Positions 6,266 to 23,593 of a stretch of 29,451 nt of DNA are shown one piece after another (within the stretch, counting starts at the first letter, position 1; the number at the start of each line of letters is the position of its first letter). Source of the DNA: Streptomyces sp. NRRL S-118 (GTDB taxonomy: Bacteria; Actinomycetota; Actinomycetes; Streptomycetales; Streptomycetaceae); the NCBI RefSeq assembly GCF_000716335.1, contig NZ_KL591034.1:7143-36593 (forward strand). The letters are read 5' to 3'. The position numbers and the translations under genes are program-made. The notes beneath the pieces were generated by a model. The model was given only the letters and a program-made list of their open reading frames with translations, had not been told where the DNA came from and did no database searches.

Positions 6266-8536
6266 GTGTCCCATCACCTGCGCACGACCAGCCGCCGTAC
6301 CCGGCGTACCCGCTGCACCGCCATCGCCGCCGTCCTCGCCGCGGGGCTGACGACCGTCCTGCCGGCCGGCACGGCTCACGCCGCTGAAGCGGCCGAGATC
6401 CTCATACCCGCACCCGACGCCTACGGCGACGGCACCGAGACGGTGCTGGCGACCGGCAGCCAGGGCGTGCTGCACCACGAGGGCGGCGGTTACCTCTGGA
6501 CCACGACGTACAACCGCACCACCAAGCCCGTCCCGGCCCTCGACGGCGTCCCGCAGGCGGCCATCGTGCGCGGCCACGACGAGTACAACCGCGTCACCTA
6601 CACCCGGCCGCGTGAGGACGGCGGCACGGACGTCGTGCGGGTCGGCATCGAGGACCCGCGCTTCACCAGCACCATCACCGTGCCCGCCGGATACCTCAAC
6701 CCGCGCATCGCCAACGGCTGGGTACTCGCCACCGTCGACCAGGGCGACGGGACGTACCAACTGCGCGTGGCCCGCGGCGGCGACCCGGCGAACGACCCCG
6801 TCGTGCAGCTGCCCGCCGGAGCCACCACCGGCGCCGAACCCCAGCTGCTCGGCGCCTACTACAACCAGCTCGTCATCGGCTACCGCACCGCCGACGGCAC
6901 CCCGGCCTACGGCATCCTCACCGCGTACAACGGCAGGGTCGCCCCGCTGCCCGTGACCGGCGAGGCCGGCAGCTTCCGCATCACGCAGACCACCGTCAGC
7001 TGGTTCTCCCGCAGCGGACAGCCCGGCGTGCGGGTCATGCCCTTGGGCAGCACGGCCGCCCCGCGCGTCGTGCCGCTCGCCACGGGGTCCGCCGACAGCG
7101 CGGTCACCTCGTTCGTGATCGGCGACAACGTGCTCTGGTACGAGGGCGACGGCGGCCCTCTGCGCCTCACCCCCTTCGCCGGGGCGGAGACCGAACGGAC
7201 GCTGCTCAGCGACGTCGAGCAGGCGTTCCTGCGTGCCGAGGGCACCGGTTCCCTCGTCGCGCTCGGCAAGGACGCCGACGGGAAGCGCGCCGTGCACCAC
7301 TACAGCGTGGACGGCCTGGGGCTCGTCTTCGACCTGCCGCTGCGCCAGGTCCCCCGTACGAAAACGGCCGACGGCTCGATCGGGGCGCTGAGCCTGGACC
7401 GCGGGCGGCTGCGGTACGTCAACTCCCTGACCGGCACGGAGACGTTGCACGGCAAGGACATCGGCACGGGACTCGCCCCGGCCGACGGCGCGCCGCTCGC
7501 CGACTTCCCCGGCATCGCGGCGGGCCGCTTCGCCGACGGCACCGACGAGGGTCTGGCCAGGCTGGTCGCCGACCCGGACACGGGTGCCGACGTGCTGGTG
7601 ACCGGCGACGACCCGGCGAAGCCGGCGGACAGCTTCCCGCTGCCGGGAAGGAACGGCCGCATCCTCGACACCGCACCGGAGTTCGTGGTGTACGAGGCGG
7701 GCGGACAGCAGTACGTCGTGGACACCGCTCGCGACCTCGTCGTCCGGCAGCAGCCGGCCCAGGCGGCCGTACTGGACCAGAGGAAGCTGTTCAAGCCGGC
7801 GCTCAACCAGCCCGGCAAGGTGAAGGTCATCAACCTGCACACCGGAAAGCCCACCGGAACCCTCGACCTCGGCTCCGCCTGCGTCCCCAGCGAGCTGCAG
7901 CACAGCGGCTCCCTGCTGTACTGGAGCTGCGCCTCGCAGGACGCGGCGGGCGTGCGCGACCTGTCGACCGGTCGCACCTTCTCCGCACCGGCGTCCGGCG
8001 TCCTGCTCGGCGACCGCTTCCTGGCCCACCGCGACGCGTCCGGCGCTCTCCGCCTCACGGCCCTGCAGGCGGACGGCGGCACGGCGGACCTGGGCACGGT
8101 CACCGGACTGAAGCAGCCCGCGGACGGCGATGGGCGCGGCACCACCTGGACCCTCGACCCGGGCGCCGGCAAGCTCGCCTGGGTCGGCGCGGACGACACC
8201 GTCCACGTCACCGCGCCGCAGCACGCGGTCTCTCCGCTGCGCATCGCCCGTACCGCCGCGCCCCGCACCGCGGCCGGTGAGTGGGCAGCCGCCTGGTGGC
8301 TCTCCAAGCCGGCGGCATCCTGGCAGGTGACGCTCACCCGCCGCGCGACGGGCGAGACCGTCCGCACCTGGACGGGCGAAGGGACCCTGAGCGCCGTACG
8401 GATCACCTGGGACGGCACGTCCCGGACAGGCACCCCGGCGGCGACCGGCGGCTACACCTGGCGACTGACCGCCACCCCGGCGGACGGCACGGGCCCGGAC
8501 GCGACGGCCTCGGGCGTCGTGAAGCTCACCGGGTGA
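6266..8536 (+). CDS. Secreted beta-rich protein with FlgD-like Ig C-terminal domain
   Basis: 756 aa. Start GTG 6266, preceded by GAGGGGGG. The N-terminus is a long signal peptide: Arg-rich n-region (TTSRRTRRTR), hydrophobic core and AHA-A cleavage site at about residue 39. The RR content might allow Tat export, but no canonical RRxFLK is present. Residues ~45-650 are repeating beta segments with WTTTYNRTT-, VARGGDPAND- and LSLDRGRLRYVNSLTG-type strands, which suggests a beta-propeller. Residues ~665-756 match a FlgD-type Ig domain (RRATGETVRTWTGEGTLSAVRITWDGTSRTGTPAATGGYTWRLTA). Streptomyces encodes several extracellular proteins with this layout; substrates are unknown. It is monocistronic, with a strong hairpin after the stop. 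Confidence 0.75.
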   Translation: MSHHLRTTSRRTRRTRCTAIAAVLAAGLTTVLPAGTAHAAEAAEILIPAPDAYGDGTETVLATGSQGVLHHEGGGYLWTTTYNRTTKPVPALDGVPQAAIVRGHDEYNRVTYTRPREDGGTDVVRVGIEDPRFTSTITVPAGYLNPRIANGWVLATVDQGDGTYQLRVARGGDPANDPVVQLPAGATTGAEPQLLGAYYNQLVIGYRTADGTPAYGILTAYNGRVAPLPVTGEAGSFRITQTTVSWFSRSGQPGVRVMPLGSTAAPRVVPLATGSADSAVTSFVIGDNVLWYEGDGGPLRLTPFAGAETERTLLSDVEQAFLRAEGTGSLVALGKDADGKRAVHHYSVDGLGLVFDLPLRQVPRTKTADGSIGALSLDRGRLRYVNSLTGTETLHGKDIGTGLAPADGAPLADFPGIAAGRFADGTDEGLARLVADPDTGADVLVTGDDPAKPADSFPLPGRNGRILDTAPEFVVYEAGGQQYVVDTARDLVVRQQPAQAAVLDQRKLFKPALNQPGKVKVINLHTGKPTGTLDLGSACVPSELQHSGSLLYWSCASQDAAGVRDLSTGRTFSAPASGVLLGDRFLAHRDASGALRLTALQADGGTADLGTVTGLKQPADGDGRGTTWTLDPGAGKLAWVGADDTVHVTAPQHAVSPLRIARTAAPRTAAGEWAAAWWLSKPAASWQVTLTRRATGETVRTWTGEGTLSAVRITWDGTSRTGTPAATGGYTWRLTATPADGTGPDATASGVVKLTG

Positions 8537-8690: not shown

Positions 8691-11384
8691 TCACCGCCTG
8701 CGGGTCGCGGCCCCCTTGCCTCCGTCCCGGCCGTTGCCGATACGTCCGGGCGCTCCGAGGCCGGGCCCGCGGACACCGGCCGGGACCAAGCGGCTCAAGT
8801 GCGGCAGGCGCGGCAGCAGCAGCGGCAGCGCCGGCAGAGCCGGCAGCGAGGGCAGGAGCGGCCGGCCCCGCATCAGGCGCGTCACCGCGGTGGCGTAGGC
8901 GATGCCGAAGACGAGGGAGGCCACCAGGGCCAGGGGCTCGGAGAAGTCGTCGAGGAGCGGGTAGACCTGCCAGTGGGTCAGGTAGATGTACATCGAACTG
9001 GACGCCACCAGGCCGGCCACGCGGTTGACCCGCTCGTGGCCCGGCAGCGTCGGGAGCCACACCAGCAGGGTGAACCCGACGACGACGAACGCCTCGCGCC
9101 CGGGCTCGCCGGGGAAGAAACCCGGCACGGTGAGGACCGCCGTCGCGGTGACGATCAGCCGGTGCACCACCGTGCGGGACTTCGACGCCGCCCAGCCCAG
9201 GGCGAACAGCCAGAAGACGGTCACCGCGTCCGTCATGTGGGAGCGGTCCGGAAGCCCGGCGAGGTCGTAGCGGGTGAGCAGGCCGAGGGCCACCAGGGCG
9301 AGGGGCAGTCCGTACGGGAAGCGCCTCTCCGCCCGGTCCGCGGCGGGCAGCGCGAGCAGGGCGACGACGGCGATCAGGATGTAGACCAGGGCCTCGATGA
9401 ACCACAGGTGGATGCCCGACCCCATGTCCAGCGGCTTGAGGGCGTTGTGCAGGAGGAACAGGTTGGTCAGCGTGTAGTCGTCGCTGATGAGGAGGGCGAA
9501 GGCGATCCAGGCCATGCTCGGCAGGGCGATGCGCGCGATGCTGCGCGAGGCGTGGTGCACGCGCCGGCGGCGTCCCGCCGTGGTCAGGTGGAACCGGGCG
9601 AAGTTGAATCCCGCGACGGTCAGGAGCAGATGGGCTCCGCCCCTGATGTCGAACAGGGATATGTGCGAGCCGACGATGCAGAAGATCGCCGCGGCGCGCA
9701 GGGCCACACCGGTCTCCAGGGCGCGGTGCCGGGAGCGGCCGGGCCGAGCCGACCGCTCGAGCGCGCGGATCGGCGTCGTGTGCCAGTCCTGCGGCAGGTG
9801 ACCCAGCCGCTCCTCGAGGTTGACGGACATCTCGACGTACGACAGCGAGTCGCCGCCCAGACCGACGAAGGTGCTGTCCTCGGTCACGTCCGTACGGTCG
9901 AGGACCCGTGCGTAGAGCCCGCACAGGTCCTCTCCGCCGGACCCGGCTCCCACCCCGCCGGGAGCATCGGGCGCCGCCCGGGCGGCCAGTTCGCGGACCG
10001 CGCGGTAGTCGGGCTTGCCCGTGGGGAGGCGAGGCAGGTCCGCCAGGATGTGGACGCGCACGGCGCGGGCCGGCAGCTCGCACGCGCCCGCCACCAGTCC
10101 GCGGATCCGCCGCGCGTCGGACTCGGGCACACCGGTGGCGGCGACGGTGAGCGCCTCGTCGTCCCCGGTGCACAGGGCCGTGATGCCACGGCGTTCGAGC
10201 GACGCCTCGATCTGCTGCGGATCGATCCGCAGACCGAGGATCTTCACGAACCGGCTGCGCCGCCCGACGATCTCGTACAGCCCCTCCGGCGTACGCCGTG
10301 CGACATCGCCGGTGCGCAGCTCGTCCGTCGTCCGGCCGAGAGCGAGGTCGTCCGGGGTGTGCGCGTAACCCAGCATGACGTTGCGGCCGGTGTAGACGAG
10401 CTCCCCGGCCGAGCCGTCGGCACAGGGCAGGTCCTCGACCGGTTCGAGCCGGAACGCCCCGCCCGGCACCGGCACTCCGATCGCGCCGGGGTGTGCGGCG
10501 GCCAGATCAGGGGGCAGGTACGCCATGCGGGCCGTCGCTTCGGTCTGCCCGTACATGACGAACAGGTCCCAGCCACGCCGTGCACCCAGGTCCGCGTAGC
10601 GGGCCACCTTGTCGGGAGCCAGGCGGCCGCCGGCCTGCGTCACGTACCGCAGGTGGGGGAGGTCCATGCCGGCGAACCCGACGCGGTCGAGGAGGTCGAA
10701 CGTGTACGGGACGCCGGCGAGGGCCGAGCCGCGTGCCGTGCGGAAGAGGTCCCAGAAGCAGGAGTCGGCCACCGACAGGCCGGTGAGGATGAGGCCGGCG
10801 CCGCGCAGCAGGTGGCTGTGGACGACGGACAGGCCGTAGCAGTAGGAGAGGGGCAGGGTCGTCGCGGCGCGGTCGGTCTCGCGTATGCCGAGGTACGCCG
10901 CGATCGACTCCGCGTTCGCCTGAAGGTTGTCGTACGAGAGACGGACCAGCTTGGGTGACCCGGTCGACCCGGAGGTGCTCAGCAGCAGGGCGAGGTCCGG
11001 GTGCAGCGTGTGGGCGGAGACGGTGCGCCGCTCGTCGAGGATCCACGGTCCGTCCGCCGGCCGGACGACGACATCCGGGTCGTACGCGGCGGTCAGCGCT
11101 TCCACCGCCTCGGGGTGGTCGCCCGGTACGAGGAGTACGGGGTGTCCGGCCGACAGCGCCGCGAGGTGGACGACGAGGGCTTCGACGGTGTTGGCACCGG
11201 GCAGCAGGACGAGCCGGCGATGGGGGCCGAGACGCAGAGCGGTGTCCGCCACCCGCTGGGCGAGATCACGGTAGGAGAGCGTGCCGTCGGGAGTGATCAG
11301 GGCCGCGCGGTCGCCATGGGCGGCGAGGCCCTGGGCGAGGGGGAGCGTCATGCCGCCGGGAAGCGGTGCGGGGTGGTGCGTCAC
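8691..11384 (-). CDS. Adenylation - carrier protein - acyltransferase-3 fusion
   Basis: 897 aa from GTG 11384; ATG 11351 is a plausible alternative. Three parts are visible. (1) ANL adenylation domain, residues ~10-470: STSGSTGSPK (~136-145), YGQTEA (~278-283), TGDVAR (~358), GRRSRFVKILGLRI and PTGKPD (~454) with the catalytic lysine. (2) Carrier domain, ~485-545, with the phosphopantetheine site FVGLGGDSLSYVEM (Ser ~513). (3) Integral membrane acyltransferase-3 domain, ~555-855, opening LRAAAIFCIVGSHISL with the family's conserved Arg and His, then about ten helices, followed by a basic Pro-rich tail. Inferred path: an acid is adenylated, loaded on the carrier and passed to an acceptor at the membrane. 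It is divergent from an iron importer, and both units have an iron-box-like site. Acid and acceptor are unknown. Confidence 0.8.
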   Translation of the reverse strand: MTHHPAPLPGGMTLPLAQGLAAHGDRAALITPDGTLSYRDLAQRVADTALRLGPHRRLVLLPGANTVEALVVHLAALSAGHPVLLVPGDHPEAVEALTAAYDPDVVVRPADGPWILDERRTVSAHTLHPDLALLLSTSGSTGSPKLVRLSYDNLQANAESIAAYLGIRETDRAATTLPLSYCYGLSVVHSHLLRGAGLILTGLSVADSCFWDLFRTARGSALAGVPYTFDLLDRVGFAGMDLPHLRYVTQAGGRLAPDKVARYADLGARRGWDLFVMYGQTEATARMAYLPPDLAAAHPGAIGVPVPGGAFRLEPVEDLPCADGSAGELVYTGRNVMLGYAHTPDDLALGRTTDELRTGDVARRTPEGLYEIVGRRSRFVKILGLRIDPQQIEASLERRGITALCTGDDEALTVAATGVPESDARRIRGLVAGACELPARAVRVHILADLPRLPTGKPDYRAVRELAARAAPDAPGGVGAGSGGEDLCGLYARVLDRTDVTEDSTFVGLGGDSLSYVEMSVNLEERLGHLPQDWHTTPIRALERSARPGRSRHRALETGVALRAAAIFCIVGSHISLFDIRGGAHLLLTVAGFNFARFHLTTAGRRRRVHHASRSIARIALPSMAWIAFALLISDDYTLTNLFLLHNALKPLDMGSGIHLWFIEALVYILIAVVALLALPAADRAERRFPYGLPLALVALGLLTRYDLAGLPDRSHMTDAVTVFWLFALGWAASKSRTVVHRLIVTATAVLTVPGFFPGEPGREAFVVVGFTLLVWLPTLPGHERVNRVAGLVASSSMYIYLTHWQVYPLLDDFSEPLALVASLVFGIAYATAVTRLMRGRPLLPSLPALPALPLLLPRLPHLSRLVPAGVRGPGLGAPGRIGNGRDGGKGAATRRR

Positions 11385-11393
11385 CCGCGCATC

Positions 11394-11412
11394 GTAGGTA
11401 AGCCTCTCCTTA
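11394..11412 (-). promoter_or_regulatory. Iron box (DmdR/IdeR-type) before acyltransferase fusion gene
   Basis: The minus strand reads TAAGGAGAGGCTTACCTAC, 14 of 19 matches to the DmdR-type iron box as I know it (TTAGGTTAGGCTCACCTAA). It is 10 bp before the GTG start, so bound repressor would block transcription. Its AAGGAGAGG part could also act in the leader as a ribosome site, though about 20 bases from the GTG. Confidence 0.6.
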
Positions 11413-11578
11413 TCCGAAAGGGGGGAAGTGCGGCCCGCGCGGGGCGGCCGAGCGACGGTGCGGCCGCCCCGGCGGCCAACCGCTGGGAGCCGTGGGGGAC
11501 TTGGCCCGGCGGCCGCCCGGCGCACGCGCAGGACGCTGGTTTCCGCGACCAAGCTGTGATCTCGTACGCCCTTGACCC
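11413..11578. other. Divergent promoter region between the two iron-box sites
   Basis: About 165 bp between the two iron-box-like elements. No separate gene was recognised. The open frame continuing upstream of the fusion gene is Arg/Pro-rich and looks like non-coding GC-rich DNA. Confidence 0.5.
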
Positions 11579-11597
11579 TTAGGTAAGGATTACCTTA
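11579..11597 (+). promoter_or_regulatory. Iron box (DmdR/IdeR-type) before Fe ABC importer operon
   Basis: TTAGGTAAGGATTACCTTA is nearly palindromic (TTAGGTAA/TTACCTTA, one mismatch) and matches 15 of 19 positions of the DmdR-type iron box. It lies 106 bp before the binding-protein start, consistent with repression of the importer operon when iron is plentiful. Confidence 0.7.
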
Positions 11598-11703
11598 TGA
11601 ATGCCGTGTTCCGGTGTCTCCCGGGACCCATTCGCCCGCTCACCCGTGGGGGCGCCACGCCCTGATGACCGCAGCGAGCACGGCAGGAAAGGCATCACCC
11701 CCT

Positions 11704-12723
11704 ATGCGACGCCCCCTGGCACGCACCCTCACCGCGCTCGCCGCCACGGCGCTGCTCCTCCCGGCCCTCGCCGGGTGCGGCGACGACGAGCCGGCCGGTC
11801 TCGTCATCTACTCCGGCCGCAACGAGAACCTGGTGAAACCGCTCATCGAGAAGCTGGAGAAGCACCTCGGCACCCGGGTCGAGGTCCGCTACGGCGACAG
11901 CGCCGAACTCTCGGCGCAGCTCCTCGAAGAGGGTGACCGCACCGAGGCGGGCCTCTTCCTCTCGCAGGACGCGGGTGCCCTCGGCGCGCTGTCCAAGGAG
12001 GGGCGCCTCGCCCCGCTGCCCAAGTCGACGCTGGACAAGGTCGCCCCGGCCTACCGCGGCGCCGCCGGTGACTGGACGGGCATCAGCGGGCGCGTCCGCG
12101 TCATCGGGTACCACCCCGACAAGGTGGCCACGCCCCCGGACAGCGTCCACGACCTCGTGAAGCCGGAGTGGAAGGGCCGGATCGGGTACGCCCCGACCAA
12201 CGCCTCCTTCCAGGCGTTCGTCACCGGCATGCGCGTCCTGGAGGGCGACGACGCCACCCGCACCTGGCTCAAGGGCCTCAAGGCCAACGACCCCAAGGCG
12301 TACGACAACAACTCCAACCTCATGGACGCCGTCGACAAGGGCGAGGTCTCGCTCGGCCTCCTCAACCACTACTACTGGTACGAGAAGGTCGCCGAGAAGG
12401 GCGAGGAGAACGTCGACGTCAAGGTCCACTTCCTGCCCAAGGGCGACCCCGGCGGGCTGGTCAACGTCGCCGGAGCGGGCATGCTGAAGGGCGCCGACAC
12501 CCAGCAGAGCGCCTACGCGCGGAAGGCCGTGGACTACCTGCTCTCCGCCGAGGCGCAGACCTACTTCGCCGAGGAGACGAAGGAGTACCCACTGGCCGCG
12601 GGCGTGCCGACGGCCGACGGAGTGCCGCCCCTGGACTCCCTGGAACCGCCGAAGATCGACCTGGGCAGGCTGGAGTCGCTGAAGGAGACCCTGGCGATGC
12701 TCCAGGACGCAGGAATGGTCTGA
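11704..12723 (+). CDS. Iron(III) ABC transporter substrate-binding lipoprotein
   Basis: 339 aa from ATG 11704, with GGAAAGG about 11 bases upstream; a frame open from 11614 lacks a signal start. Signal peptide with lipobox LAGC, Cys ~25. The mature part opens GLVIYSGRNENLVKPLIEKLEKHLGTRVEVRYGDSAEL, typical of the FbpA/FutA/IdiA ferric-binding cluster of type-2 periplasmic binding proteins. NHYYWYE at ~221-227 supplies the adjacent tyrosines that bind Fe(III) directly in FbpA-type proteins. It is anchored outside the membrane and hands ferric ion to the permease. First gene of a three-gene operon, 2 bases before the permease start, with an iron-box-like site upstream. The divalent or other oxyanion specificities of related families cannot be fully excluded. 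Confidence 0.85.
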   Translation: MRRPLARTLTALAATALLLPALAGCGDDEPAGLVIYSGRNENLVKPLIEKLEKHLGTRVEVRYGDSAELSAQLLEEGDRTEAGLFLSQDAGALGALSKEGRLAPLPKSTLDKVAPAYRGAAGDWTGISGRVRVIGYHPDKVATPPDSVHDLVKPEWKGRIGYAPTNASFQAFVTGMRVLEGDDATRTWLKGLKANDPKAYDNNSNLMDAVDKGEVSLGLLNHYYWYEKVAEKGEENVDVKVHFLPKGDPGGLVNVAGAGMLKGADTQQSAYARKAVDYLLSAEAQTYFAEETKEYPLAAGVPTADGVPPLDSLEPPKIDLGRLESLKETLAMLQDAGMV

Positions 12724-12725
12724 GC

Positions 12726-14315
12726 GTGACGACACCGGATCCGCGCGTCCCGACGCGTCGCGATTCCCGCCCGGCTGGCGCCCCCGCGCCCGCCGGGCGC
12801 TCGCACACCGCGCGCCGACCGCCTCTGCTCCTGGCCCTGTTCGCCGGCGCGGCCGCACTGCTCGCGCTCCTGCCGCTCGGCTACATCGGCGTACGGGCCC
12901 TGGAGCGCGGCCCCGCGTTCGCGTGGAACGTCGTCTCCGACCACAGGACCGGGCTCCTGCTGCTGCGCAGCCTCGGACTCGCCGCCACCGTCGTCACCGC
13001 CTGCCTGGTGCTCGGTGTGTCGCTGGCCTGGCTCACCGTCCGCACCGCACTGCCGGGCGCGCGCGCCTGGTCGGTGCTGGTGACGCTGCCCCTCGCGGTG
13101 CCCAGCTACGTGGCGGCGTTCGCGTGGCTGTCCGCCGCCCCGGCCCTCGTCGGCTTCGCCGGCGCCGCGCTCGCGCTGACCCTGGTCAGCTTCCCGTACG
13201 TCTACCTGCCCGTCGCCGCCACCTTGCGGGGCATCGACCCGGCGCAGGAGGAGGTGTCCCGGGCCCTCGGGCACAGCCCGCTGCGGACCTTCCTGCGGGT
13301 CACCCTTCCTCAGCTGCGCCCGGCCGCCGGCGCCGGCGGACTCCTCGTGGCGCTCTACGTCCTGTCGGACTTCGGTGCCGTTTCGCTCATGCGGTACGAC
13401 ACCTTCACCCGCGGCATTTACACCTCGTACCGGGCCAGCTTCGACCGCACCCCCGCCGCCGCGCTCAGTGTGGTCCTGGTCGTCATGACCGTGGCGCTGG
13501 TCTTCGCGGAGGCCCGTACCCGCGGCCGCGCCGGACACTCCAGGACCGGCACGGGCACCGCCCGCCCGGCATCCGACGCCCCTCTCGGACGCCTGCGCCT
13601 GCCCGCCCTGGCGTGGTGCGGCGCGATCGTCACGGCGGCCGTCGGCTTCCCGCTCGCCGTACTCGGCTACTGGCTGGTCGTCGGGACCTCCGCCACCTGG
13701 GCTCCCGCCACCCTCGCGGACACCGCGCTCACCACGCTCGGCGTCGCGACCGCGGGCGCCGCGCTCACCACGCTGCTCGCCCTGCCCGTCGGCGTGATCG
13801 CCGCCCGCCACCGCGGCCGGACGGCCCACCTGCTGGAACAGTCCGCGTACGCGGGACACGCGCTGCCCGGCATCACCGTCGCCCTCGCCCTGGTCTTCTT
13901 CGCGGTCCGCTACGCCCGCCCGCTCTACCAGGAACTCCCGCTGCTGGTGTGCGCCTACGCCGTGCTGTTCCTGCCCGTCGCGGTCGCCGCCACCCGGGCC
14001 GCCGTCCTGCAGGCGCCGCCCGTGCTGGAGGACGTCGCACGCTCGCTCGGCCGCTCTCCGCTGCGGGTGCTGCGCGAGGTCACCGTGCCGCTCGCCGCGC
14101 CCGGGATCGCGGCGGGGACCGCCCTGACGCTCGTGGTGTGCATGAAGGAGCTCCCCGCTACCCTGCTGCTGCGCCCCACCGGCATGGACACCCTGGCCAC
14201 CCGGCTGTGGACCGAGACCGGCACCGGCTCCTTCGCCGCGGCCGCCCCCTACGCCGCCGTCCTGATTCTGCTCGCCGCAGTACCGTCCTACCTCCTCGGA
14301 AGGCACCGCTCATGA
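12726..14315 (+). CDS. Iron(III) ABC transporter permease
   Basis: 529 aa, GTG start 2 bases after the preceding stop. It is a double-length permease of the FbpB/SfuB type, with about 12 helices made of two homologous halves. Each half carries the cytoplasmic EAA loop that contacts the ATPase: EEVSRALGHSPLRTFLRVTLPQLRPA (~175-200) and EDVARSLGRSPLRVLREVTVPLAAPG (~434-461). The central linker (~255-290) is basic and hydrophilic. It forms the membrane channel for iron delivered by the upstream lipoprotein. Its stop overlaps the ATPase start (ATGA), so the two are translationally coupled. Confidence 0.88.
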   Translation: MTTPDPRVPTRRDSRPAGAPAPAGRSHTARRPPLLLALFAGAAALLALLPLGYIGVRALERGPAFAWNVVSDHRTGLLLLRSLGLAATVVTACLVLGVSLAWLTVRTALPGARAWSVLVTLPLAVPSYVAAFAWLSAAPALVGFAGAALALTLVSFPYVYLPVAATLRGIDPAQEEVSRALGHSPLRTFLRVTLPQLRPAAGAGGLLVALYVLSDFGAVSLMRYDTFTRGIYTSYRASFDRTPAAALSVVLVVMTVALVFAEARTRGRAGHSRTGTGTARPASDAPLGRLRLPALAWCGAIVTAAVGFPLAVLGYWLVVGTSATWAPATLADTALTTLGVATAGAALTTLLALPVGVIAARHRGRTAHLLEQSAYAGHALPGITVALALVFFAVRYARPLYQELPLLVCAYAVLFLPVAVAATRAAVLQAPPVLEDVARSLGRSPLRVLREVTVPLAAPGIAAGTALTLVVCMKELPATLLLRPTGMDTLATRLWTETGTGSFAAAAPYAAVLILLAAVPSYLLGRHRS

Positions 14316-15364
14316 CCGACCTCCAGATCGCCGGAGTGGTGAAGGGATACGGCTCCGGGGAACGGGTCCTGGACGGGCTCGACCTCTCCGTGCCCGGCGG
14401 GTCGCTGGCCGCGGTCCTCGGCCCGTCGGGATGCGGCAAAACCACCCTGCTCCGCGTCATCGCCGGTTTCCTGCGCGCCGACGCCGGCACGGTCACGGTC
14501 GGCGGCCGCACCCTGAGCGCCCCCGGCACCCACCTGCCGCCCGAACGCCGCCGTGTCGGTATCGTCCCCCAGGAAGGCGCGCTGTTCCCGCACTTGAGCG
14601 TGGCCCGCAACGTCGCGTTCGGCCTCACCGGCGCCGACCGGGCGGCCCGGTACCGCCGCGTCGGCGAGATGCTGGACCTGGTGGGCCTCGGCGGCTACGG
14701 CGACCGTATGCCGCACGGCGGCCAGCAGCAGCGCGTCGCCCTCGCACGCGCCCTGGCACCGGAACCCCAACTGGTGCTGCTCGACGAGCCGTTCAACGCG
14801 CTCGACAGCGCGTTGCGCACCGGGGTGCGTGATGACGTCCGCGCCGCCCTGCGGGCCACCGGCGCCACCGCCGTACTGGTCACCCACGACCAGCAGGAAG
14901 CGCTCTCGACCGCCGATCTCGTCGCCGTCGTACGAGGAGGCCGTGTGGCGCAGTGCGGCACTCCCCAGGACGTCTACCACCGCCCGGCCGATCCCTGGGT
15001 CGCGGATTTCGTCGGGGACGCCGTCATCGTCACCGGGACCGCCGACCAGGGCACGGCGACCACCCCTCTCGGCCGCGTTCCGCTGGCCGCACCGGCACCC
15101 GGCGTGCGGGAGGGGCTGGTGCTGCTGCGCCCGGAACAGCTGCGGCTCGCCGACGCGGACGGTGCGGAGGCCCACGGGACCGTGACCGAAGTGCGCTTCT
15201 ACGGTCACGACGCCATGGCGAGCGTCGCCGTCGACGGCCTGGACGCACCGGTCGACGTCCGCGTTCCCGGCCGGGCGCCCGTGCGGCCGGGCCAGCGAAC
15301 CGGCCTCCGCGTGACGGGGGAGGCCACGCTGCACCCGGTAGAGACCCCGGGCTCCTGCATGTGA
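14312..15364 (+). CDS. Iron(III) ABC transporter ATP-binding protein
   Basis: 350 aa, overlapping the permease stop by 4 bases. Walker A GPSGCGKTT at ~37-45, Q-loop VPQEGALFPHLSV at ~85-97, signature region HGGQQQR at ~135-141, Walker B LVLLDEP at ~154-160, and switch histidine in VLVTHDQQEAL at ~192. The signature is degenerate: the usual LSGGQ reads PHGGQ, a variation tolerated in several transporters. Residues ~235-350 form the C-terminal beta extension common to FbpC/PotA-type ATPases (LVLLRPEQLRLADADG...VTEVRFYGHDAMASVAV), possibly regulatory. It drives ferric import with the two preceding genes. Confidence 0.88.
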   Translation: MTDLQIAGVVKGYGSGERVLDGLDLSVPGGSLAAVLGPSGCGKTTLLRVIAGFLRADAGTVTVGGRTLSAPGTHLPPERRRVGIVPQEGALFPHLSVARNVAFGLTGADRAARYRRVGEMLDLVGLGGYGDRMPHGGQQQRVALARALAPEPQLVLLDEPFNALDSALRTGVRDDVRAALRATGATAVLVTHDQQEALSTADLVAVVRGGRVAQCGTPQDVYHRPADPWVADFVGDAVIVTGTADQGTATTPLGRVPLAAPAPGVREGLVLLRPEQLRLADADGAEAHGTVTEVRFYGHDAMASVAVDGLDAPVDVRVPGRAPVRPGQRTGLRVTGEATLHPVETPGSCM

Positions 15365-21061: not shown

Positions 21062-21924
21062 ATGGGGAGGCGTGATCTGACGAATGCGCAGTGGGCGAAG
21101 CTGGAGCCGTTGCTCCCGGTCGGGAAGAGGCCCGGACGGCCGCCGGTGCACACCAAGCGGCAGTTCATGGACCGCATACGCTGGCGCACCCGCGCTGGTG
21201 CTCCCTGGCGGGACGTGCCCGAGCGGTACGGGCCGTGGGAGACGGGCTACGGCCTGTTCCGGCGTTGGCAGCGGGACGGCACCTGGCACCGCATTCTTCG
21301 AGCAGTTGCAGGCCCGGGCCGACGCCGAGGGACTGATCACCTGGGACGTCTCGGTGGACTCGACCATCGTCCGCGCCCACCAGCAAGCGGCGGGTGCCCG
21401 CGAAAAGGGGATCTGCAGGTCGAGCCGCCAGGCGGTGTCTTCACCGAGCCCGACGACCACGGGCTCGGACGCTCCCGGGGCGGGCTGACGACCAAGCTCA
21501 ACCTGGCGGTGGAGCAGGGCCAGAAGCCGATGTCACTGGTGATCACGGCCGGGCAGCGCGGTGATTCCCCGCAGTTCCAGGTGGTCTTGGGCCGTATCCG
21601 GGTGCCCAGGCTCGGGGCGGGCCGCCCTCGCAGCCGGCCGGCCAAGGTTCGCGCCGACAAGGCGTACAGTTCCGCGCGAACCGCGCCTACCTGCGCAAGC
21701 GCGGTATCCGCTGCACGATCCCGGAGAAGCGCGACCAGATCGCCAACCGCGAGCAGCGCGGCCGGCCGCCGAAGTTCGACCAGGCCGACTACAAACAGCG
21801 CCACGCGGTGGAGTGCGGAATCAATCGCCTCAAGCGGCACCGCGCGGTCGCCACCAGATACGACAAGCGCGCCGTGCGCTACGAGGCGACCGTACTCGTC
21901 GCAGCCATCAACGAATGGCTGTGA
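21062..21924 (+). pseudogene. IS5-family transposase, frameshifted
   Basis: Reading across frames gives a full-length IS5-type DDE transposase of about 287 aa: MGRRDLTNAQWAKLEPLLPVGKRPGRPP..., then FEQLQARADAEGLITWDVSVDSTIVRAHQ (first catalytic Asp region), then [33 protein letters not shown] and [10 protein letters not shown] (second Asp), and finally [17 protein letters not shown]...[22 protein letters not shown] (Glu region) to a stop at 21922. Frame changes occur near 21297, 21420 and 21673. The first could be a programmed shift, as used by some IS5 elements, but three changes indicate decay. Confidence 0.8.
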
Positions 21925-21943
21925 CCAGCACTTCTGCAACCCC

Positions 21944-22735
21944 CTAGGACGTGGGCGCGTCCGGCGTGGGCTTCCGCCTCCGCATCACGTCCGCCACGCT
22001 CACGTCCTCCGTCTCCGGAGCCCCGAACGCCTCGACGATCGCCCCGCTGCTCGTGCCGGTCACTTCCAGCGCCACGTGGCTGCCCATCAGGCGCAGGTCG
22101 AGCCTCGCCAGCGGCGCGCCCGAACGGTCCTGCATCCGGTGGATCCGGGACGCCGGATAGTCCAGTTCTGTCAGCTTCCGGTGCAACACCTGGTAGCTGG
22201 TCGTCCTGGGGCTCCTGAACGCCTCACCGACGCGCTGTGCGTGTTCGCTGCCGCTGCACTTCTCGACACCGGTCAGCGGCACCTCCTCGGCCGGCCCGGA
22301 CCCGGCGGGATCAGGTACCGCCTTCGTGGGCACGGCGTCACCCGCAGGAACGGGTATGTCTCCCTCGGCGTTCGGGGTCCCGGGCGGTGTCTCGCCGGGC
22401 CCGTACCTCGGCGCGGGCGTGTCCTCCCGGCCCGGCAGGTCCTCCGGCCCGGGAACCCCACCGTTGTCGCAGCCACCGGGGGAATCCGGTGCGCAGTCCT
22501 GCGTGATGCGGGTTCCCATCGCCACAAACCGCAACTCCGCGGCGTTGTCGCTCGGCGGATTCCTCGGTGGGGTGGCCGCCGGGGCGGTACTTCCCGTCGC
22601 GGTCCGTCCGGCCGTGGCGCTCGGAGCGCCGCAGCCGACGAGGACCATGCAGCCGAGCGCGGCCAGCGGAACAACCTTCAGGAGGGATATCGATCGCACG
22701 GGCGCATCATGCGGCGTGCCGGTCACCGCGCACAT
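21944..22735 (-). CDS. Lipoprotein, hypothetical
   Basis: 263 aa from ATG 22735, with GAGGTGAG about 11 bases upstream; GTG 22699 would give a more usual signal peptide. Hydrophobic core PLAALGCMVLVGC, with lipobox LVGC at ~35. A long Pro/Gly/Glu linker (~50-155) contains a small Cys pair (DCAPDSPGGCDNGG). The conserved-looking C-terminal ~90 residues run SYQVLHRKLTELDYPASRIHRMQDRSGAPLARLDLRLMGSHVALEVTGTSSGAIVEAFG. Family not recognised. Its TAG stop lies within the CTAG at the right edge of the insertion element, so the insertion left the protein end intact. Confidence 0.6.
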   Translation of the reverse strand: MCAVTGTPHDAPVRSISLLKVVPLAALGCMVLVGCGAPSATAGRTATGSTAPAATPPRNPPSDNAAELRFVAMGTRITQDCAPDSPGGCDNGGVPGPEDLPGREDTPAPRYGPGETPPGTPNAEGDIPVPAGDAVPTKAVPDPAGSGPAEEVPLTGVEKCSGSEHAQRVGEAFRSPRTTSYQVLHRKLTELDYPASRIHRMQDRSGAPLARLDLRLMGSHVALEVTGTSSGAIVEAFGAPETEDVSVADVMRRRKPTPDAPTS

Positions 22736-22769
22736 GGGTACGCGTACTCACCTCGTCCCCGCCCCCGGC

Positions 22770-22790
22770 CACCGCCACTCCGCGGCGGTG
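22770..22790. terminator. Weak hairpin after Rid-family gene
   Basis: CACCGCC and GGCGGTG, 7-bp arms with a 7-base loop, 51 bp past the stop of the Rid-family gene. Tentative. Confidence 0.35.
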
Positions 22791-22840
22791 TCCGGCGCGG
22801 GGTGACGGCGGTGCGAGGCGGCCGGGTCCCCGTACGGGAG

Positions 22841-23254
22841 TCAGCCGGCGGGGCGCACGGCAACCGCGTCGATCTCGAAGAGCATTCCAGGCAGTGCGAG
22901 CGCGGCCACCCCGCTCAGCGTCTGCGCCGGCAGGCGCTCCCCGAACGCCGCGTGGAGTGCCTTGCCGAGGACCTCCAGCTTGCCGAGGTCGTGGTCGACG
23001 ATGTACGAGCCGAGCCGCACCACGTGTTCGAAACCGAGCCTGACGCCTTCGAGCGCGTGCCGCAGGTTGGCGAGCGAGAGCTCGACCTGCGCGGCGAAGT
23101 CCCCGGGAACGGGCGCTCCGGTGTCGGGGTGGGAGGCGTACTGCCCGGCGATGAAGACGAGTTCGCCCGGCGCGGACACGGCGTGGCTGTAACCGAACGG
23201 GGTGGGGTCGTGCAGGGTGCCGGGGTTGGTGATGGTGCGCTGATCGGTGGTCAC
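22841..23254 (-). CDS. Rid-family (YjgF/YER057c/UK114) protein
   Basis: 137 aa from GTG 23254, preceded by AAAGGAAC about 9 bases upstream. It has the normal Rid length and pattern: FGYSHAVSAPGELVFIAGQYASHPDTGAPVPGDFAAQVELSLANLRHALEGVRLGFEHVVRLGSYIVD..., ending LPGMLFEIDAVAVRP. True RidA proteins hydrolyse reactive enamine/imine intermediates and need an Arg near the last strands (PARSCVEV in E. coli). Here the matching place reads PAQTLSGV, so the Arg is Gln. This points to one of the Rid subfamilies without proven imine deaminase activity. No operon partner; divergent from the 73-aa gene. Confidence 0.85.
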   Translation of the reverse strand: MTTDQRTITNPGTLHDPTPFGYSHAVSAPGELVFIAGQYASHPDTGAPVPGDFAAQVELSLANLRHALEGVRLGFEHVVRLGSYIVDHDLGKLEVLGKALHAAFGERLPAQTLSGVAALALPGMLFEIDAVAVRPAG

Positions 23255-23593
23255 TGCGGAGCGTTCCTTTCAGGGAAGGTGGTCGCCTGCCAAGCAGGCG
23301 GACGAGGTGAGCGTGGTGCCGTCCGGAGCACCGCGGTGAGGTCTTGTGCCGCAACGCGCACGTGGCGGGGCGGCGCCGGGCAGAGTCCTGGAGGGGGTGC
23401 GGCCGCGTGACGTGCCCGCACATCGCGCCACCAGTACCGCCACCACCGCAATCACCCCCCACGTACTGCGAACGCGTCGCTTCGGCAGTACATTCCACCG
23501 CGGCCGTCCATTCCGCCGCGGCCGCTCGGGCCCGCACGCCATCACCGCCTTTCCCTGGCCGCTGTGCAGGCCCGGGCAGGTGACGGCACGACA
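23255..23593. other. Intergenic region between divergent genes
   Basis: About 340 bp upstream of both the Rid-family gene and the small 73-aa gene. No gene or strong repeat was recognised beyond the -10 box at its right end. Confidence 0.4.

Follow-up and report, generated by a model that had tools for sequence, protein, structure and literature searches.

Among the closest described systems is DltA-DltC-DltB(-DltD), in which an ANL ligase charges a carrier and a membrane acyltransferase then moves the acyl group outwards. Ferric-ion importers of the FbpABC, HitABC and SfuABC kinds are another point of comparison for the locus described here; we know of none with a dedicated acyl-transfer enzyme, and no dedicated iron source is known to us for the FbpABC importers of actinobacteria. 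Membrane acyltransferases of the AT3/TmAT kind are described, in the available portions of the papers cited, as carrying acyl-CoA through a pore towards an acceptor on the outside (PMC9833829, PMC12423673), with the acceptor side extracytoplasmic (PMC12423673). The AT3/TmAT fusions named in these portions are with SGNH, racemase and NRF domains and have acyl-CoA as donor (PMC9558356, PMC9833829, PMC12423673), and the term "AMP-binding" is absent from the main texts of the same three papers.

The window, by which we mean the whole 29,451-nt stretch of Streptomyces DNA that was analysed, encodes a ligase, a carrier and a membrane acyltransferase of the AT3 kind as one chain:

8691..11384, minus strand: fusion gene for ANL ligase, carrier and AT3/TmAT membrane acyltransferase; open frame of 897 aa with a GTG start
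10365..11324, minus strand: AMP-binding (ANL) domain, residues 21-340 (PF00501, 4.7e-40)
9801..9929, minus strand: phosphopantetheine carrier domain, PP-binding, residues 486-528 (PF00550, 8.3e-06)
8883..9701, minus strand: AT3 membrane domain, Acyl_transf_3, residues 562-834 (PF01757, 8.4e-10)

The domain search that the earlier note had called for found AMP-binding, PP-binding and Acyl_transf_3 in the 897-aa protein, each over its curated Pfam cut-off (38.6 bits against 31 for PF01757). All three domains are present in 106 of the 120 best database matches listed, for which domain order is not given, and AMP-binding and AT3 occur together in all 120. The relatives with all three domains show that the fusion is no frame or assembly artefact; together with the open frame and the Pfam matches they bear out the note's claim that the domains share one reading frame. 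The ligase-carrier-AT3 fusion is thus a real and common architecture. Residue conservation was read from an alignment of 36 sequences, the window protein included, in which the key catalytic residues of ligase, carrier and AT3 show no variation.

The fusion gene's 3' end is closely followed by a frame at 6266-8536 that points towards the gene; its product, of 756 aa, has a FlgD-type Ig-like match towards the end of the chain and no counterpart in any of the other fetched loci. Further away, the frame at 21062-23410 has an IS5-family transposase match within its first 230 residues. On the other side of the fusion gene lies an importer operon:

11704..12723, plus strand: FbpA-type ferric-ion-binding lipoprotein, likely start at 11704, with a LAGC lipobox and a di-tyrosine motif, NHYYWYE
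12726..14315, plus strand: permease of a ferric ABC importer, a single chain with two BPD_transp_1 stretches
14312..15364, plus strand: ATPase of a ferric ABC importer, with a TOBE domain

The binding protein at 11704-12723 matches solved ferric-binding proteins (7w3w at 9e-74, and also HitA, sfuA, YfuA and FbpA), and the permease and ATPase follow it in the same direction. Judged by these matches the neighbour is an FbpABC ferric-ion importer of the FbpA/HitA/SfuA kind, which places it among the FbpABC/HitABC/SfuABC importers. A siderophore importer was considered as the partner and rejected, since the binding protein is of the ferric-ion type by its match to 7w3w. This FbpA is the only close one in the genome, the next match having an E value of 5e-5.

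Iron boxes were scored as matches out of 19 to the consensus TTAGGTTAGGCTAACCTAA, with a cut-off of at least 13/19. Only two sites in the window reach it:

11394..11412, minus strand: iron-box-like site, 14/19, its nearest base 10 upstream of the fusion gene's start codon
11579..11597, plus strand: iron-box-like site, 15/19, upstream of the divergent ferric importer

The first of these is the site that the earlier note had likened to an iron box, and the relatives uphold the likeness. Searching from 350 bases upstream to 60 bases inside the start of the match, we found a box of at least 13/19 near the fusion gene at 100 of 109 related loci, compared with 29 of 4,019 length-matched random stretches drawn from those loci; the 109 include close kin and possible species repeats, and the genome's other ligases (L001-L008) and weak or end-cut matches had been dropped. 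A count restricted to boxes directly before the gene gave 13 of 20 loci against 13 of 762 random stretches at the same cut-off, and it falls short of the wider count mostly because copies downstream of the importer use the operon's box. Where the fusion gene does not lie behind the importer on the same strand, a box precedes it at 72 of 75 loci, and unlinked copies have their own box in 34 of 37 cases. Where it does lie behind the importer, only 4 of 18 loci have a box before the fusion gene itself and all 18 have one within 450 bases before the FbpA gene, these 450-base stretches having no random control of their own. By one route or the other, the fusion gene stands under an iron box at 90 of 93 loci. 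The genome also encodes a DtxR-type repressor domain (PF01325 match, 8.3e-20), and iron-starvation control of the fusion gene is likely from this pattern of sites. The DmdR1 regulon of S. coelicolor is described, in the available part of the source, with no such gene named (PMC12161575).

A mini-frame of three codons, ATG CGC GGG TGA, at 11381-11392 shares bases with the fusion gene's GTG start codon, and an AGGAG stretch lies inside the iron box at 11394-11412. Taken together, these features suggest possible translational coupling to the fusion gene. No sigma-70-type promoter or terminator was found in a search of 11300-11760.

To what extent the fusion gene keeps company with FbpA was read from two sets of genomes, in both of which some of the fusion-gene matches are partial. 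In the class-level draw of 394 genomes the fusion gene was found in 66, spread over 25 of 137 genera, and FbpA in 118: both genes occur in 66 genomes, the fusion gene alone in none, FbpA alone in 52 and neither in 276. The two lie at most 7 kb apart in 50 of the 66. Among 295 genomes of the same genus there were 38 with fusion-gene matches and 45 with FbpA, distributed as 35 with both, 3 with the gene alone, 10 with FbpA alone and 247 with neither; two of the three gene-alone matches are ligase-only at 45-46% identity and the third is partial. Fisher values for such counts take no account of kinship among the genomes. Since every gene-bearing genome of the class-level draw has FbpA and 52 genomes have FbpA only, the fusion gene depends on FbpA and not the reverse.

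The ten same-genus genomes with FbpA and no fusion gene at the cut-off used (G030, G094, G130, G135, G146, G153, G172, G187, G219 and G279) are natural comparison strains. One further genome, G197, carries a partial fusion gene (C1:307416-308735) and no FbpA at that cut-off, as if both were being lost.

FbpA and permease genes lie within 6.5 kb of the fusion gene at 56 of 93 loci, counted over those of the 103 loci whose two flanks each span 5 kb or more. Conservation near iron importers, which the earlier note had named as a test of its idea, is therefore what was found, both here and in the 66 gene-bearing genomes. Five arrangements occur: the importer is divergent at 30 loci, lies upstream in the same orientation at 17 and downstream in the same orientation at 7, has its ATPase gene split off at 1 and is convergent at 1. 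They need 17 changes on the tree, over which the linked copies are spread; the tree is a FastTree tree only, with long branches, and leaves out L163 and L164 (apparent repeats of L117 and L064), both of which remain in the 93-locus counts. The FbpAs of linked loci have diverged, with identities to the window FbpA down to about 29-37%. In Rhodococcus opacus, R. fascians and Mycolicibacterium chubuense the gene occurs on plasmids, where annotations identify the adjacent binding protein and permease as components of an iron ABC transporter.

No further conserved neighbour gene was found: with a crude frame caller, the largest family besides the fusion gene and importer occurs at 13 of 80 named loci, and most families are without annotation. 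Among the ten annotated neighbours, a Micromonospora contributes a luciferase-like protein and an FMN reductase, two Rhodococcus loci dehydrogenases and a Nocardioidaceae locus a glycosyltransferase. In Rhodococcus sp. KRD197 (L096, 2606-9209) the fusion gene adjoins genes for an M1 peptidase, an MFS protein and a second adenylation-carrier protein that has hexapeptide repeats. Plasmid copies in Mycolicibacterium chubuense (L173) and Rhodococcus fascians (L174) adjoin cadmium-transporter and cation-ATPase genes, L173 being beside arsenic genes as well. No iron importer adjoins the relatives in Rhizobium, Sinorhizobium and Leisingera (L168, L170 and L171), which are about 37-41% identical; the one in Rhizobium etli has as neighbours an ABC importer of another kind, a YcaO gene and adenylate cyclase genes.

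The ligase and carrier have the features of an NRPS module, with adenylation and carrier domains that include Lys457 and Ser513, and a Pfam scan of the 897 aa found no condensation domain. The ligase motifs are STSG(S/T)TGSPK at 136-145, YGxTEA at 278-283 and TGD at 358-360; the STSG(S/T)TGSPK residues checked, T281-E282, T358, D360 and Lys457 are invariant across the 36 aligned sequences, as is carrier Ser513 (36/36). Where amino-acid adenylation domains anchor the amino group by an Asp, the window protein has the stretch YCYGLS (181-186), in which there is no Asp. The anchoring Asp of LgrA aligns with Cys182 (first adenylation domain) or Gly184 (second), an alignment that is not unique; neither of these two columns, each invariant among the 36 sequences, holds Asp. 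Lacking this Asp, the ligase probably loads an acid other than an alpha-amino acid, and D-alanine or another alpha-amino acid is disfavoured as the substrate for the same reason. Three alphaproteobacterial relatives have YSYGLSV in this stretch. In aryl-acid ligases, which take acids of the catechol or salicylate type, the usual residue is Asn. Structure comparison gave the ligase half the general ANL fold but singled out no closest relative: the matches to FACL13, PigI, MenE, HitB, EntE-EntB and others were tied in score, so no substrate can be assigned from them. A ligase-only relative at 38.6% identity on a plasmid of Deinococcus sp. NW-56 (L172) has glycosyltransferase genes around it and shares its locus with genes for an acyl carrier protein, an SDR, an acyl-protein synthetase and an acyl-CoA reductase; these surroundings may hint at the type of acid.

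The AT3 domain has about 10 membrane-length helices and a TmAT-like predicted fold, and R563-x10-H574 in its first membrane helix is invariant (36/36). Modelled alone, the membrane half reached a pLDDT of 88.2; in VIA-align this model scored clearly higher against HGSNAT and GWT1 than against the remaining chains, and Foldseek alone ranked HGSNAT first at a weak E of 0.11. The predicted structure thus resembles the transmembrane acyltransferases HGSNAT and GWT1.

One feature sets the domain apart. The RxxR motif of TMH3 is stressed in the available portions of work on AT3/TmAT proteins (PMC9833829, PMC12423673), which also report that its first Arg is conserved in most TmAT members and that most of the conserved TmAT residues touch the adenosine and pantothenic parts of CoA (PMC12423673); in a simulation of OafB, the contact from this motif to the 3'-phosphate is made by the second Arg (PMC9833829). 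In the fusion proteins the first Arg, at position 615, is replaced by Ser in 31 of 36 sequences and by Gly in the other 5, and the second, the residue of the OafB phosphate contact, is retained in 34 with Lys in 2. Ordinary AT3 proteins of the same genome keep the first Arg in 6 of 7 readable rows, L183 being without it; the 7 come from 10 loci, of which L178, L180 and L182 were not readable. With a looser RxxR pattern, Arg was seen in 11 of 16 matches from 38 loci, and the other 5 look misplaced. The Asp of DxxR is also missing in the window protein (Val560), a position that is variable in the ordinary AT3 rows. Because the full RxxR motif is lacking, we did not file the fusion as an ordinary CoA-using AT3. 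A phosphopantetheine arm on a carrier has no adenosine part, so loss of the first Arg fits a donor that is carrier-bound rather than acyl-CoA, and we infer that the loss may reflect such a donor.

Our best reading, to which we give a probability of roughly 45%, is that the fusion protein is an iron-starvation enzyme that passes an acyl group from acyl-AMP to its carrier and on to an extracytoplasmic acceptor, and that the resulting ferric ligand or surface group supplies FbpABC. At low iron a DtxR/DmdR-type repressor would leave the iron boxes, as their conservation suggests. The ligase, whose motifs are in place, would then adenylate a carboxylic acid, probably not an alpha-amino acid, and load it onto its own carrier. 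Instead of acyl-CoA, the phosphopantetheine arm with its acyl thioester would enter the cytoplasmic mouth of the membrane domain, where His574 would help to shift the acyl group to an acceptor at the outer face; the residues and predicted fold are those found here, and the donor and the direction of transfer are modelled on TmAT enzymes. The product, either a released small molecule or an envelope group, might hold Fe3+ near the membrane for FbpA, which would account for the one-way co-occurrence.

These parts are not equally secure. That the fusion enzyme is a dedicated partner of FbpABC under iron control is very probable, and transfer from its carrier to the outside is probable to a lesser degree. 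That the product acts as a ferric ligand we put at a little under even odds: the one-way dependence on FbpA, the boxes by either route and the want of another widespread neighbour point to a product that supplies FbpABC. The earlier note's idea of an iron-related acylated molecule gains from the same 66 genomes with both genes and 52 with FbpA only. A sharper version, in which one enzyme sends an acid on its own arm through the TmAT pore and builds a ferric ligand on the outer face for the bare-ferric FbpABC to collect, is more tentative again.

Among the alternatives, the one that survives best, though we think it unlikely, is that the enzyme remodels the envelope at low iron, acylating a wall polymer, glycan or lipid in the manner of Dlt or Alm with an acyl group that does not bind iron. 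A ligase with its own carrier follows the Dlt logic, and no other neighbour gene recurs widely. Known AT3 enzymes also acylate surface glycans, according to the available portion of PMC9558356. Remodelling does not, however, predict that the gene should be absent wherever FbpA is absent (0 exceptions among 66 in the class sample) or that it should be linked to FbpABC in five gene orders, and a Dlt-like version lacks the Asp for the amino group of D-Ala.

Clearly less probable is the tailoring of a small molecule: the enzyme would acylate a siderophore or antibiotic made elsewhere in the genome, and a siderophore target would explain the shared iron control. Antibiotics are substrates of stand-alone AT3 proteins in the portions available of PMC9558356 and PMC9833829, an iron box is present, and the Rhodococcus copy L096 has a second adenylation-carrier gene and an MFS gene nearby; against this, the importer coupled to the fusion gene belongs to the bare ferric-ion type and no other neighbour family rises above 13 of the 80 named loci, with most families unannotated.

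Slightly more improbable still, the importer could itself be the acceptor, with FbpA, its lipid anchor or the permease being acylated and the importer thereby activated or placed. The one-way dependence on FbpA, the lipobox of the window FbpA and the extracytoplasmic acceptor side of TmAT enzymes (PMC12423673, in the part available) would suit this, but FbpA occurs without the fusion gene in 52 class-level genomes, and linked FbpAs diverge to about 29-37% identity. An AT3 enzyme with a protein target is, to our knowledge, not on record in citable form.

Last, it is highly improbable that the iron link is a by-product of shared location with the box serving the importer only: divergent genes do share one intergenic region and 20 of 56 such regions hold fewer than two boxes, but the other 36 hold at least two, unlinked copies retain their own box (34/37) and the gene orders number five.

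If the one-enzyme reading, with a ferric ligand built on the outer face, were true, neither an exporter nor a siderophore receptor would be needed, and the FbpABC importers of actinobacteria would gain a named, dedicated iron source, a form of ferric capture without a classical siderophore. The protein would be, as far as we know, the first TmAT enzyme shown with a built-in carrier instead of CoA, and transmembrane acyl transfer, described with acyl-CoA, would extend to a fused carrier thioester. The gene is widespread and present in many actinobacteria of the soil, occurring in 66 of 394 class-level genomes and never without FbpA in that sample.

Titles and abstract starts of the open-licence literature yielded no description of the fusion or of its iron link, in keeping with the earlier note's statement that no system of this form had been described. 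The available portions of PMC9608346 and PMC4531530 mention iron importers or FbpABC and no AMP-binding partner.

Compared with Dlt, the fusion is one chain with a fused carrier and an AT3/TmAT in place of an MBOAT enzyme; it lacks the Asp for an amino group and has an iron box and an FbpABC partner. The earlier note's account thus stands for the fusion, the intact residues, the iron box and the importer linkage, and the closeness to Dlt that it proposed is less well supported: activation, carrier and transfer are shared as a scheme, but the membrane part is AT3 rather than MBOAT, and D-alanine or another alpha-amino acid is unlikely for a ligase without the amino-anchoring Asp. The Pls and PosA synthetases of poly-lysine and poly-ornithine likewise unite adenylation and carrier domains with membrane helices in a single polypeptide, with amino acids as substrates and a membrane part that has polymerising domains and is not AT3; by Pfam, the Pls-type C-terminal polymerising domains are absent after the carrier of the fusion protein, where only AT3 is found. 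Aas-type acyl-[ACP]--phospholipid O-acyltransferases also combine ligase and acyltransferase in one protein, with another acyltransferase type and a role in lipids. Unlike the fusion gene they are not iron-linked, and the Aas NCBIfam models match the fusion's ligase region at 97.7 bits, far under their cut-off of 1221. HGSNAT and GWT1 were solved with CoA ligands, have no carrier domain and are 9-11% identical to the membrane half. The AT3 and AT3-SGNH acetyltransferases OafA/OafB and OatA share the PF01757 domain with R-x10-H and the expected extracytoplasmic acceptor (PMC9833829, PMC9558356); in the portions available they are described with acyl-CoA and, where fused, with an SGNH or racemase domain, whereas the fusion protein has a ligase and carrier fused and has lost the first RxxR Arg. 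The parts are of known kinds, and what is new is their combination, the FbpABC partner and the missing first Arg.
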